Shown: positions 965 to 5,679 of the stretch, piece by piece
How the letters are laid out: each line of letters opens with the position of its first letter
Position numbering within the stretch: position 1 is the stretch's first letter
Notes under the pieces: model-generated
What the model saw: only the letters and a program-made list of their open reading frames with translations
Told to the model about the DNA's origin: nothing
Database searches by the model: none
Translations under genes and position numbers: made by a program
Assembly: GCA_004299235.1 (NCBI GenBank)
Contig: SCQL01000017.1
Span: 62,001-126,000, forward strand
Length of the DNA: 64,000 nt
Source of the DNA: a bacterium
GTDB lineage: Bacteria; Chloroflexota; Dormibacteria; Dormibacterales; Dormibacteraceae
Reading direction: 5' to 3'

Positions 965-1570
965 ATGAGCACATCGAGCCGTGGATTACGGGGTCGCTGG
1001 TTCACGGTGGCTCTGCTGGCGGTCGTGCTGGTGGTGGCCGGCGTCCAGGTCGCCAACCCACACAGCTACCTGTCGGAAGCCGTCGCGCGCATCGGCGAAA
1101 CCGGATCCGGCCCCGACGCAACCCTCACCAACCTCACGAGCGTCGATCAGCTGCAAGCGAGATTCAATCGTGACTCGGGCCACCCACGTCTGATCCTCTT
1201 GCTGTCGCCGACCTGACCGACGTGTGCCGCAGGCGCCCGGTGGGTGCGAAGCAACATCCTGGAGAGGTACCCGTCATCGGTCGTACGGGTCTATGTGGTT
1301 TGGTTCGACACGCTGCCAGCGGATTCGCGAGGCCTGGTCGACCGAAAGGTGCTGAACGATCCTCGAGTCGCCAACTACTACGACCCGAACCGCGTGGTCG
1401 GATCGTGGTTCGCCAAGCACACCGGTGGTGGCGGGATCGTCTGGGACGCTTACTTCCTTTATGGCGCGGATGCTTCGTGGAGCGATGAGCCAGGACCGCT
1501 CGTGAGCTCCGGCGGGACCGTGATCGGGTCGAGCGGTGACCTGGCGGCGGCGTTCCGCAAGCTCGTTTAG
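965..1570 (+). CDS. Probable selenoprotein: membrane-anchored thioredoxin-like protein with UxxC motif (UGA at 1214-1216)
   Basis: Two open stretches, 965-1213 and 1217-1570, lie in the same frame and are separated by a single UGA. Read through, they give one 201-residue protein. It has a signal-anchor helix at about residues 12-29, then a beta strand LILLLSPT, then U84-P-T-C87, then a helix AAGARWVRSNILERYP and a second strand VVRVYVVWFD. That is the start of a thioredoxin fold with the redox motif where expected, with UGA in place of the first cysteine. The C-terminal part (YDPNRVVGSWFAKH, WDAYFLYG) is conserved-looking and continues without further stops. The gene probably encodes an envelope thiol/selenol oxidoreductase. 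The alternative, a nonsense mutation, would have had to strike exactly the catalytic cysteine codon. No sel genes are in the window. Confidence 0.75.
1214..1247 (+). promoter_or_regulatory. Candidate bacterial SECIS element after the in-frame UGA
   Basis: The UGA at 1214-1216 is followed by a hairpin. Arm GCGCCC (1233-1238) pairs with GGGTGC (1242-1247) around the three-base loop GGT. The loop begins 22 bases after the UGA and opens with G. This satisfies the published general model for bacterial SECIS elements: a loop of 3-14 bases, 16-37 bases from the UGA, with G in the first two loop positions. The stem is only six pairs, including one G-U. The pairing is seen in the sequence; SelB recognition is inferred. 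Confidence 0.55.
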
Positions 1571-1642: not shown

Positions 1643-2191
1643 TCAGGCGTGCACCTGACCTCGCCTGAACCGGCGCTCCGCGTAGTCGACTGGTCCCAAC
1701 ACGAAGCAGCCGACCTGGTCGTCCCTCCCGAGAACCCAATTCGAGATGGCCAGCACCTCGCATCCGCCGTAACCACGTGAGGCGGCGAGCAACATCGAGG
1801 CCCCATAGAAGATCAGGGCCGCATCGCTGGTGAAGGCAAGGGGGCGCGCGTACCACGGAGTCAGGAACAGGGCGAGGAAGACCAGCATGTTGAGCGCGGT
1901 GCCCCAGAGTCCGGTGGCTTGAAAACGGCTCGGATCACGACGGGCACGCACCCACTGGACTGTGAGTAACGCGGCTGGGAAGACGGCCGCGCCAAGAAAC
2001 AGGCCGAGCGGATCGAAGCCCGCCCGCAGCTGACCATGGTCCACCACGATCTGGCCTCCCAGCAACCCGTACACCACAAGGGCCAGACCAAGGACCACTC
2101 TAACGGCTGTGCCGGCGGAGCCAATCTCGCGCCTTCGCCCGCTCTCACTCGGCTTCATTCGCGCTTCCACCGGTCCTGCCTCCATCCCCAC
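1643..2191 (-). CDS. Small integral membrane protein, unknown function
   Basis: About 182 residues with roughly four hydrophobic helices: VRVVLGLALVVYGLLGG, LFLGAAVFPAALLTVQWV, MLVFLALFLTPW, and LIFYGASMLLAA. A cytoplasmic-looking, cysteine-containing C-terminal tail follows (GYGGCEVLAISNW, DDQVGCFV). The tail pattern recurs in unnamed actinobacterial and chloroflexal membrane proteins as I remember them, but I cannot name a family. The start may be the inner Met of MKPSESGRRR, about 33 bases downstream of 2191. It is convergent with the thioredoxin-like gene. Confidence 0.55.
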   Translation of the reverse strand: MGMEAGPVEARMKPSESGRRREIGSAGTAVRVVLGLALVVYGLLGGQIVVDHGQLRAGFDPLGLFLGAAVFPAALLTVQWVRARRDPSRFQATGLWGTALNMLVFLALFLTPWYARPLAFTSDAALIFYGASMLLAASRGYGGCEVLAISNWVLGRDDQVGCFVLGPVDYAERRFRRGQVHA

Positions 2192-2395
2192 CGTATAGCC
2201 TCACCCGAGGCAAGAGTCAAGTCTGGGCGGCTCGTCGACCGAGGACCGCTGGCCGGCAATGCCCGGGCCGATATCCAGACTCGCCGGTCTTTGCCCATAG
2301 CCAGACGCGTCTCTCCACTTCGGGGTGGGTGGTGGTGGGGTAACTTCCACCCGTATAGATGAATACGCCCGACCGAGCGTTTGGGAGGTGGTCAA

Positions 2396-2878
2396 ATGGG
2401 AGTCTCCAGACTGAAACGAGAGTCGGTCCGCTGTTGGGTCGCCGTTTCGGCAGTCGTCCTGTCCGCCTGCAGCGGTTCAGGGTCGCCTTCGGCTGCAACG
2501 TCACCGAGCCCCGCCGCTTCGCCAACGGTTATCGTCGCGACGGCTACCGTGACAGGTACCTCGGAACAGGTGCTGACGACGCCCGGCGGGCTCACCCTGT
2601 ACTACCTGACGTCGGACCTTGCCGCAACGCCGAAGTGCAGCGCCAGCTGCTTGACCCACTGGCCCCCACTGCTGTCGACCGGCGTCGTGGTCCTTCCGTC
2701 CGGTGTGTCAGGAGCCCTGACTATCGTCCAGAACAGCAACGGCAGCCAGGTCGCATACAACGGCCACCTGCTCTACAGGTTCGCTAACGACAAGGCTCAG
2801 GGCGATTCGAACGGCGAGGGCATCAAAGCTTTCGGCGGCACCTGGCATGCGGCCACACCGGGTCTTACCTCAACGTGA
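2396..2878 (+). CDS. Secreted lipoprotein with 'Y-X4-D' repeats (PF03640/COG4315 type)
   Basis: About 160 residues from ATG 2396, which sits behind GGGAGGTGG. An earlier in-frame start at 2381 would place that site inside the gene. The N-terminus has a basic stretch, a short hydrophobic core and lipobox VLSAC, so it should be a lipid-anchored exported protein. A low-complexity Ser/Pro/Ala linker follows. Two repeats come next: GGLTLYYLTSD with the CSASCLTHWPPL cysteine pair, and NGHLLYRFANDKAQGD with GGTWHAATP. This is the COG4315 'secreted repeat' pattern. Function is unknown; members often sit near redox or electron-transfer genes. Confidence 0.8.
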   Translation: MGVSRLKRESVRCWVAVSAVVLSACSGSGSPSAATSPSPAASPTVIVATATVTGTSEQVLTTPGGLTLYYLTSDLAATPKCSASCLTHWPPLLSTGVVVLPSGVSGALTIVQNSNGSQVAYNGHLLYRFANDKAQGDSNGEGIKAFGGTWHAATPGLTST

Positions 2879-3045
2879 TTGGGGCGTGGCTCACAAGTTC
2901 TCAACCGCAGCCGTCCCCCGAATAAGACTGCCTTGCTTCGAGGGACCGGTGGTCGCTCGCCCGGTTCGCGGATACGAACATCCGAGTCACCTGTGAACAC
3001 CAATCCGAAGCGCAAGAGCGGTGCTCATCAGCCTCGGCACAATCG

Positions 3046-3831
3046 TCAGAAGCGAACCAGTCCGCCATCGATCAGCAACGATTCACCGGTTATGAACGGA
3101 GCCTCATCAGAAGCGAGAAATGCCACCGCGGCAGCGACTTCCTCGGGTCTGGCCGCGCGACCCAATGGCGCTTCGTGCTCCGCCGCGCGCTTTGCCGATC
3201 CGATTGCTTCGCCGGTAATAGACGTCATCTCTCGGTCGATGTATTCCCACATCCGGGTCGACGTCACGTGGCCCGGGCAGTAGGCATTGACCGTGATCCC
3301 ATGTGGAGCTAGTTCTACGGCCAGGCTCTGCGTTAGTCCGATCACACCGAACTTGGTGGCCGAATAGGCGCTGATCAGGCTGCTCCCTCGACGGCCCGCT
3401 CCCGACGCTCCGTTAATGATCCGACCTCCCCGACCCTGAGTGATCATCTGACGCGCCGCTTCCCGACAACCAATGAAGACGCCACGTAGGTTCACATCGA
3501 CCACACGATCCCAGGCCTCCGTGGTCATGTCGATCAGCGGTCCGATCACGATGGTGCCCGCATTGTTGATCATGATGTCGAGGTGCCCGAAGGCTGCCAC
3601 CGTTCGCTCCACGGCATCCCTCACGTCGTCTTCGCTGGTCACGTCCGCGACCAGCCCGATTACCCGGCTGCCATCCGCTCCAAGTTTGGCTACCGCGTCT
3701 TGGACGGATTCCGCATGCAAGGCGATAACCGCAACCGAAGCCCCTTCAGCCAAAAGGCGCTCAGAAATCGCGTAGCCGAGACCACGAGTGCCGCCGGTGA
3801 CTATGGCCACCTTGTCGCGTAGGCCGTTCAT
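3046..3831 (-). CDS. SDR-family oxidoreductase (FabG-like)
   Basis: A 261-residue classical short-chain dehydrogenase. It has the NAD(P)-binding TGGTRGLG near residue 12, NNAG at about 90, and catalytic Ser in INGASG with YSATK (Tyr-x3-Lys) at about 155-159. The C-terminus ends IDGGLVRF, and the length is typical. It is the last gene of the long minus-strand operon, 19 bases after the RidA gene. By context it probably oxidises a hydroxy or reduces a keto product after amide cleavage. The substrate cannot be read from the sequence. Confidence 0.85.
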   Translation of the reverse strand: MNGLRDKVAIVTGGTRGLGYAISERLLAEGASVAVIALHAESVQDAVAKLGADGSRVIGLVADVTSEDDVRDAVERTVAAFGHLDIMINNAGTIVIGPLIDMTTEAWDRVVDVNLRGVFIGCREAARQMITQGRGGRIINGASGAGRRGSSLISAYSATKFGVIGLTQSLAVELAPHGITVNAYCPGHVTSTRMWEYIDREMTSITGEAIGSAKRAAEHEAPLGRAARPEEVAAAVAFLASDEAPFITGESLLIDGGLVRF

Positions 3832-3850
3832 CGATCACCGAATCCCGGTC

Positions 3851-4240
3851 TTACTTGAGGACCGCGATGGCGTCTACTTCCATCAACAGTTCCGGTAGGC
3901 CCAGATTCGCAACTTGGACCTGCGTGCAGATTGGGCAACGTCCCGGCTCGAAGAGCTGCTGGCGAACCGCGATCTCATCAGGTGCGTGGCGGATGTCCGC
4001 GAGAAAGACCGTGATCTTGATGACGTCGGCAAGCTTGCCGCCCGCCGCCTCAACCGCCAGTCGGATGTTGTGCCAGACGCGTTCCGCCTGCTTGCGCGGG
4101 TCACCAATGCCAACCACGTTGTTGTGCTCGTCAAAGGCGACCTGCCCAGCTATATAAACCGTGTCACCACAGCGAATGGCGTGGGCATAGGGCTCTGGTG
4201 GCGCGGCGAGTCCTTCAGGCTCCAGGTACGTTCGTTCCAT
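3851..4240 (-). CDS. RidA/YjgF-family (Rid) protein
   Basis: A 129-residue protein of family length. Rid hallmarks are GDTVYIAGQVAFDEHNNVVG, RQAERVWHNI-like spacing, VIKITVFLADI, and the C-terminal strand ELLMEVDAIAVLK. The usual substrate-binding Arg in the 'R.......P.....V' region appears near GRCPICTQVQVANL, where two Cys are unusual. Rid proteins hydrolyse reactive enamines/imines or act in pyrimidine-type ring degradation (as RutC does). Here it lies between an amidase and an SDR, so it plausibly clears an imine or aminoacrylate-like intermediate of the pathway. Confidence 0.85.
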   Translation of the reverse strand: MERTYLEPEGLAAPPEPYAHAIRCGDTVYIAGQVAFDEHNNVVGIGDPRKQAERVWHNIRLAVEAAGGKLADVIKITVFLADIRHAPDEIAVRQQLFEPGRCPICTQVQVANLGLPELLMEVDAIAVLK

Positions 4241-4260
4241 TCAACCTCCAAACATCGACA

Positions 4261-5679
4261 TCATTTGGCACGAGCGGCCTCGAGTCCCCTGGGAGCTCCG
4301 ATTCCGCCAATTGCACGCTCAATCGCCAACGCAACCTGTAACGCCGTCTGTTCGTCGAATGGCCGAGCCACAACCTGAACGCTGACTGGAAATCCGGCGC
4401 TTCCGACACCGGCCGGAACGGCGACCGCTGGCAACCCTGCGAGATTGAAAGGAGCCGTGGTGCGGACCAGCGCCTGGATGACCGGTTCGGCCCCCTCGGC
4501 AAATTCATAGTCAAGCTGATCCCATCGCTGAGCTTTGGCCGGAACGGTGGGCGCAACCAGGGCATCGAGCCTCTGGTCGGCAAACAACGCAGTCAAGGCC
4601 CGCTGAATCACGCGACGCGTCTTTTGCGCCCGAAGATAGAGCGAGGCCGGCAACAGCAGGCCGGTCTCGAGCAACCCCCGGACGTCGCTCCCAATCAGGT
4701 CTGCGGACCGTTTCATGCGACTCTCGTGATATGAGGCCGCCTCAGCAGCCACGATGGCGAACTCGGCGGCCAGGCAAGCATTGAGCTCGGGTAACTCGAC
4801 CTCCAGAACCTCGGCGCCATCCTGCTGAAGGCGCTTTGAAGTCGTGGTCAGGCCGTGTTTGAAGTCGGCTTCCATAGGAGAGAACGGAGCGCCGTCCAGC
4901 AATCCGATACGCAAGCCACGCACATGCTCGCTTGCGGGCAGGAGTGGCTGGGGTAGGTACGGCCGCGCTTGTGTGGTCTGATCACGCGGATCAGGGCCCG
5001 CGAGCACCGACAACATCAACGCGGCGTCCTCCACGGTTCGAGTTAACGTGCCCACATGGTCGAGCGACCAGCTGAGAGCGAGTGCTCCGCTCCGGCTGAT
5101 GCGCCCGTAGGTCGGTTTCAATCCGACAAGCCCGCAGTGGGATGCTGGAATTCGAATCGAGCCACCGGTATCCGAGCCGATCGCCCCTGGAACTACACTC
5201 GCGGCGACGGCAGCGCCCGATCCGCCGCTCGAACCTCCTGGACTGCGGTCGAGGTCCCATGGATTGCGCGTCGGCGGCGTATACACGCCGCACGCCAACT
5301 CGTGCGTTGTCGTCTTGCCAAACACGATCCCTCCGGCCGCGCGAATGCGCGCAACCGCCGTGGCGTCCTGCACCGCTGGACGAGACCCGGACATTGCGTT
5401 TGAGCCGCAGCCGGTCGTGCTCCCGGTGACATCGAAGATGTCCTTCACGGCAATCGGAATCCCGCGGAGAGCACCTCCGGTCGTGTCGTCCTGAAGCCGA
5501 GCCTCATGAATAACTCTTTCGGCATCGACGGACACGAACGCTCGGATCAGAGGCTCCGCCGCTTCATAACGGGCAAGCGCTGACGCTGCATATTCCGAAG
5601 GCTTGAGGTCCCGCGCCGCTATGAGAGCTGCCGCCTCTACCATGCTCAAGTCCCCTAGCCGGTCACTCACTCGTTCCAC
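4261..5679 (-). CDS. Amidase-signature hydrolase (AtzE/GatA-like)
   Basis: About 472 residues, the normal length for amidase-signature enzymes. The catalytic triad is visible: Lys in GIPIAVKDIFDV, cis-Ser in SPGGSSGGSGAAVAA, and nucleophilic Ser in GSDTGGSIRIPA. Downstream, HCGLVGLKPTYGRISRSGALALS matches the family closely. The enzyme hydrolyses an amide to carboxylate and ammonia in the cytosol. The GTG start at 5679 overlaps the upstream 59-residue gene by 13 bases; an ATG at 5643 is an alternative. Pairing with a tiny GatC/AtzG-like partner resembles AtzE-AtzG of the cyanuric-acid/biuret pathway. Confidence 0.9.
   Translation of the reverse strand: MERVSDRLGDLSMVEAAALIAARDLKPSEYAASALARYEAAEPLIRAFVSVDAERVIHEARLQDDTTGGALRGIPIAVKDIFDVTGSTTGCGSNAMSGSRPAVQDATAVARIRAAGGIVFGKTTTHELACGVYTPPTRNPWDLDRSPGGSSGGSGAAVAASVVPGAIGSDTGGSIRIPASHCGLVGLKPTYGRISRSGALALSWSLDHVGTLTRTVEDAALMLSVLAGPDPRDQTTQARPYLPQPLLPASEHVRGLRIGLLDGAPFSPMEADFKHGLTTTSKRLQQDGAEVLEVELPELNACLAAEFAIVAAEAASYHESRMKRSADLIGSDVRGLLETGLLLPASLYLRAQKTRRVIQRALTALFADQRLDALVAPTVPAKAQRWDQLDYEFAEGAEPVIQALVRTTAPFNLAGLPAVAVPAGVGSAGFPVSVQVVARPFDEQTALQVALAIERAIGGIGAPRGLEAARAK

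Follow-up and report, generated by a model that had tools for sequence, protein, structure and literature searches.

A 2026 catalogue lists 119 prokaryotic selenoprotein families and subfamilies, several of which are UxxC thioredoxin-like proteins (PMC13188914). Its entries include SaoT (NF040730), taken from a publication about selenoproteins in organometallic biochemistry, and a thioredoxin-superfamily selenoprotein listed as 'Redoxin family protein' (UxxC, PF08534, HEU0032618.1); selenocysteine (Sec) is also known in mercury and heavy-metal proteins, such as MerT with a C/SxxU motif and the MerB-like SaoL (PMC13188914). ResA, TlpA, DsbE, and CcmG, for their part, place a thioredoxin fold behind a membrane anchor. 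Here, we analyzed a 64,000-nucleotide stretch of a Dormibacteraceae contig (the window), in which one gene appears to encode a protein of this architecture with Sec at the position of the first Cys of the CxxC motif. We put the probability that the gene encodes a selenoprotein at roughly 0.97, an estimate that rests on sequence comparison, without protein or selenium data. That the product is jointly a selenoprotein, a thioredoxin fold, and a participant in some metal or thiol redox role is a broader statement, which we make with good confidence. By the same comparisons, its relatives constitute a new putative family in the host phylum (Chloroflexota) and in Acidobacteriota, with Sec and Cys interchanging at one position. 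A link between the family and mercury-resistance operons is new beyond the first-pass annotation of this locus.

SaoT is also thioredoxin-like with a UxxC motif, but its NCBIfam model misses the window protein and 37 relatives; the window protein gave no match to it at E up to 1, and none of the 38 members matched at 0.01. No model in Pfam or in NCBIfam (June 2026) covers the family, and the window protein and the 37 relatives match none of the NCBIfam selenoprotein models. The Redoxin entry differs as well, with only one of the 38 family members touching PF08534 (E = 0.04). In the case of ResA, TlpA, DsbE, and CcmG, the anchored architecture is shared, but the window protein has no significant sequence match to them, lacks a cis-Pro before strand 4, and has Sec replacing the first Cys. 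The mercury-linked selenoproteins (MerT with C/SxxU, the MerT/CopZ fusion NF045683, and SaoL) also employ Sec in metal handling, but their folds differ, and the window family carries its predicted Sec in a thioredoxin-fold partner of MerT/MerA, not in the transporter or the lyase. The family is apparently uncatalogued and would be added to the 119 listed families and subfamilies. This assessment has a defined scope: catalogue entries with NCBIfam models, including the families of Haft and colleagues, were excluded by the NCBIfam scan alone, and entries without such models, notably Redoxin, were not directly compared.

The locus had been described as two in-frame halves split by a single UGA at the first Cys of a CxxC motif, and the reading frame bears this out. 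It runs from ATG 965 to TAG 1568-1570, encodes 201 residues, and is interrupted by one TGA alone (Table 1). Reading this TGA as Sec places U84 in SPT-U-P-T-C87, within the local sequence LILLLSPT-U-P-T-C-AAGARWV. Downstream of this gene, the window encodes a Lipoprotein_15 secreted repeat protein (2381-2878), with no evident link to it.

Table 1. Features of the predicted selenoprotein gene and of the gene cluster preceding it.
Feature	Position	Strand	Basis or detail
Selenoprotein gene (predicted)	965..1570	+	201 codons plus TAG; one in-frame UGA taken as Sec; homologues
N-terminal membrane helix, residues 9-30	989..1054	+	Structure model
Thioredoxin-fold domain, ~residue 55 to end	1127..1567	+	Model, structural matches
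UGA codon of Sec84	1214..1216	+	Cys in 10/38 aligned relatives
TGT codon, resolving Cys87 of U-P-T-C	1223..1225	+	Invariant in alignment
SECIS hairpin (putative)	1233..1247	+	Stem 1233-1238 with 1242-1247, loop GGU 1239-1241
arsM/ArsR/PpoB2/DUF1326 cluster	L022:7398-10174 (~2.6 kb before window base 1 to window base 174)		

A scan of named genomes returned three relatives, one from a Chloroflexi MAG (85% identity) and two from Pyrinomonadaceae MAGs (46-49%), each with TGA at the same codon as in the window. Profile searches matched the family in 9 of 400 Chloroflexota genomes and in 48 of 396 genomes of the Acidobacteriota, the phylum of Pyrinomonadaceae, where 41 of the 54 matches contain an in-frame TGA; the plasmid and viral collections yielded no relatives. 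At the aligned codon of 38 members, TGA is present in 28 and a Cys codon, TGC or TGT, in 10. The 14 nearest members, including the window gene, form a clade (support 100/100) in which all have Sec, and outside this clade Sec and Cys are intermixed over the tree, with 7 changes. Homologues ending at the UGA would have refuted the selenoprotein claim; instead, the homologues extend beyond it, and the Sec and Cys forms align across it. A long-branched Acidobacteriota subgroup of nine (L063, L069-L076) is part Sec and part Cys, with its SECIS hairpin in a different register and no mer neighbours.

The standard code would close the frame at 1216 and leave another ORF opening from GTG 1244, and the locus could be taken for a pseudogene or for two genes parted by a true stop. 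The first-pass annotation had warned that such a reading would miss the protein, and several observations contradict it: the TGA is kept in 28 diverged relatives from two phyla, the Cys versions are one continuous protein, a single fold covers both halves, and purifying selection continues past the TGA. Between the window gene and L017, dN/dS falls from 0.28 upstream of the TGA to 0.10 downstream, and the corresponding values for L018 and L019 are 0.24 and 0.19. Such low values downstream of the TGA indicate that the post-stop part is constrained as protein, and we regard the pseudogene or two-gene interpretation as practically untenable. The UGA-bearing members are liable to be annotated in two pieces, a truncated protein and a fragment, and the family is therefore easily missed by standard pipelines.

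A search for sel genes had been suggested as a check, and selA, selB, tRNA-Sec (selC), and selD were all found in the host genome (2.87 Mb, 97% complete). SelB scores 353 bits against a cut-off of 242, SelA (492 bits) is encoded directly upstream of selB, and a tRNA-Sec with the anticodon UCA was identified by ARAGORN and by Rfam (68.6 bits). The gene for SelD (364 bits; L034, G000:C9:225013-225951) likewise contains an in-frame TGA, at the UxxK site (GAG-U-ACK), and the host SelD is itself a predicted selenoprotein. Among the Sec-bearing Acidobacteriota genomes, 34 of 37 have a SelB scoring above the cut-off, versus 219 of 359 others (p = 1e-4). Among Sec-bearing MAGs, which may be incomplete, SelB was not found in G401 and G668 and was seen only below the cut-off in G400 and G644. 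A different account would have the UGA decoded as another amino acid, through a Trp or Cys code variant, or passed by programmed readthrough without Sec, and the frame is indeed open under any code that gives UGA a sense meaning. However, TGA is an ordinary terminator in the host genome (selA, selB, merA, merB, and others), which indicates that the code is not simply altered; moreover, the residue swaps with Cys and not with Trp, and the Sec machinery is complete. We consider an altered code or Sec-independent readthrough very improbable.

A hairpin (GCGCCC-GGU-GGGUGC) of 6 bp with a 3-nt loop starting with GG lies at 1233-1247, 22 nt past the UGA, and has a predicted energy of -10.1 kcal/mol. 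The published bSECIS limits call for a hairpin 16-37 nt after the UGA, G in the first loop positions, and an MFE of at most -7.5 (PMC13188914), and the window hairpin satisfies each of them. The first-pass annotation had leaned on this fit and on the improbability of a chance nonsense mutation producing a SECIS-like loop. The fit to the bSECIS model stands, and the selenoprotein reading is supported by conservation and the sel genes, but the window hairpin taken alone is not unusual: all six pairs form in 13% of random synonymous codon draws, which is not significant. Neither an Rfam scan of the region nor a search of the genome with Rfam SECIS_1 detected a SECIS, and the control search likewise gave nothing. 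A SECIS argument drawn from one sequence is weak alone and needs comparative evidence, and significance is reached only family-wide. In the window clade, 79 hairpin pairs are formed, compared with 63.3 under a synonymous-codon null whose 400 draws never exceed 73 (z 5.4). In the other Sec members, the conserved hairpin uses a second register, shifted about 5 nt towards the TGA, with 96 pairs against 65.3 (maximum 79; z 7.8). The Cys members show no pairing excess over the synonymous-codon null (z 0.6 and 1.1). Because the second register was picked after inspection of those sequences and the members are related, the evidence is less strong than these z values suggest; the Cys rows nonetheless serve as a fair internal control. 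One stem pair switches among C-G, G-C, and U-A at two codon wobble positions (nine sequences).

The first-pass annotation had also assigned both halves to one fold with an N-terminal anchor, and the structure prediction agrees, with the anchor helix and the strand-UxxC-helix element predicted at high confidence. The AlphaFold2 model built on the family alignment (mean pLDDT 89) consists of the membrane helix followed by a thioredoxin fold, with pLDDT >= 90 in each ten-residue block from residue 51 on, and residue 84 is situated immediately before helix 85-99, at the start of helix 2. It meets the test for the thioredoxin superfamily, a beta-alpha-beta-alpha-beta-alpha-beta-beta-alpha fold with C/UxxC opening helix 2, together with PDB matches. 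The nearest PDB folds are extracytoplasmic thioredoxins (DsbE/DsbF, ResA, and CcmG) and glutathione peroxidases, with sequence identities of 9-18%. In both the alignment and the model, Trp160-Asp161 takes the place of the cis-Pro before strand 4; the Trp of this WD motif is invariant in the family and the Asp nearly so. The cut-off for a classical thioredoxin/TlpA protein is not met: the window protein has no Pfam match at E up to 1, and the best Pfam score among the relatives is to PF00085 (E = 5e-4). The N-termini of the relatives carry either a membrane helix or a lipobox-like LLTAC, VVAGC, or ALAGC motif, and from these anchors we infer that the domain is located outside the membrane. Kinship with glutathione peroxidases, which the WD motif and the structural neighbours had hinted at, was rejected, with hhalign giving a probability of 0.3% against E. 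coli BtuE.

Genes for MerR-family regulators, MerT, MerC, MerE, HMA, and MerA proteins are found beside the relatives, and a mer-type gene lies no more than 3.5 kb away in 18 of 44 regions. When only the 32 regions that supplied no query proteins are counted, all 21 mer-type matches fall within 4 kb, and the other 189 kb contains none (binomial p = 2e-6), on MAG contigs of unequal length. In G337 (L077), a MerR-family regulator is followed by two Sec relatives with a 512-bit MerA between them; this regulator scores best as CueR-like, below every cut-off, and the MerR-family matches are not all mercury-specific. In G488 (L089:9610-10641), the Cys-bearing domain is fused to the MerT transmembrane part, in the order MerR - MerT/Trx - MerA. 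In G473 (L085), the relative adjoins MerT and possesses a C-terminal HMA-like domain, recognized by motif reading without a family-library scan. In G402 (L091, G402:C311, about 1700-4800), tandem Sec and Cys copies are situated between MerR-family and MerT-like genes. One relative is followed by a gene for a DsbD_TM/CcdA-type membrane protein. Most regions have no nearby mer gene, and the window gene, L017, and the subgroup of nine have none, so the metal role may be limited to part of the family. At L080:1832-3659, an HMA-MerA gene beside a relative appears to be split by a frameshift into two overlapping frames.

We propose that SelB with Sec-tRNA(UCA) would decode the UGA, aided by the hairpin, yielding a 201-residue product with an N-terminal membrane anchor, a thioredoxin-fold domain on the outer side, and a Sec84-Pro-Thr-Cys87 active site. 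The Sec/Cys pair outside the membrane may bind Hg(II) or another soft metal(loid), or may reduce its thiol adducts, and the metal would then be passed to MerT, MerC, or MerA, or the Mer thiols would be kept reduced; which of these steps applies, capture with transfer of the metal or reduction of thiols, is a matter of inference. We infer that the mer-linked subgroups are likely to take part in handling mercury or soft metals. For the gene product in general, a role specific to mercury alone is an evenly balanced inference. That the membrane-anchored extracytoplasmic Sec-x-x-Cys fold itself captures mercury (or another soft metal) and delivers it to MerT/MerC and MerA remains tentative, somewhat short of an even chance. 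The selenoprotein could instead be a general extracytoplasmic thiol-disulfide reductase (ResA/TlpA/DsbE-like) or a thiol peroxidase, the mer linkage of its relatives being a local recruitment and not a sign of its own task. The identity of the closest solved folds, the CcdA/DsbD-type protein after one relative, and the position of the window gene outside any mer operon are in keeping with a general enzyme, whereas the concentration of mer-type genes less than 4 kb from many relatives, the fusions to MerT and to an HMA-like domain, and the absence of the cis-Pro, with Trp160-Asp161 preceding strand 4, speak against it; for a peroxidase, the failure of BtuE to align by profile is a further objection. 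We hold this general role to be possible but doubtful.

Selenium binds mercury extremely tightly, and the family points to selenium used directly within mer systems. If the capture and delivery reading is true, bacteria from at least two phyla would be using selenium to detoxify mercury. Sec and Cys members coexist, and one mer cluster (L091) even has them in tandem, which offers a natural comparison of the benefit of Sec in metal handling.

The window copy is located outside a mer cluster, and neither it nor L017, its closest relative, has a mer-type gene nearby. Some 1.8 to 2.6 kb upstream of window base 1 is a gene for an arsenite methyltransferase (arsM; 265.6 bits, cut-off 263), and it is accompanied by a divergently oriented gene for an ArsR-family regulator and by genes for a PpoB2 copper-chaperone family protein and a DUF1326 protein. 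Because its neighbours are arsenic and metal genes rather than a mer operon, the metal role of the window copy is less sure, and for this copy we infer a part in mercury or soft-metal handling only as a toss-up. Another contig of the host genome encodes MerA (561 bits) with an N-terminal HMA domain, and MerB follows directly after it (L123:7625-10161, G000:C26). An ArsP-type permease with a YHS domain is encoded near this merA-merB pair.
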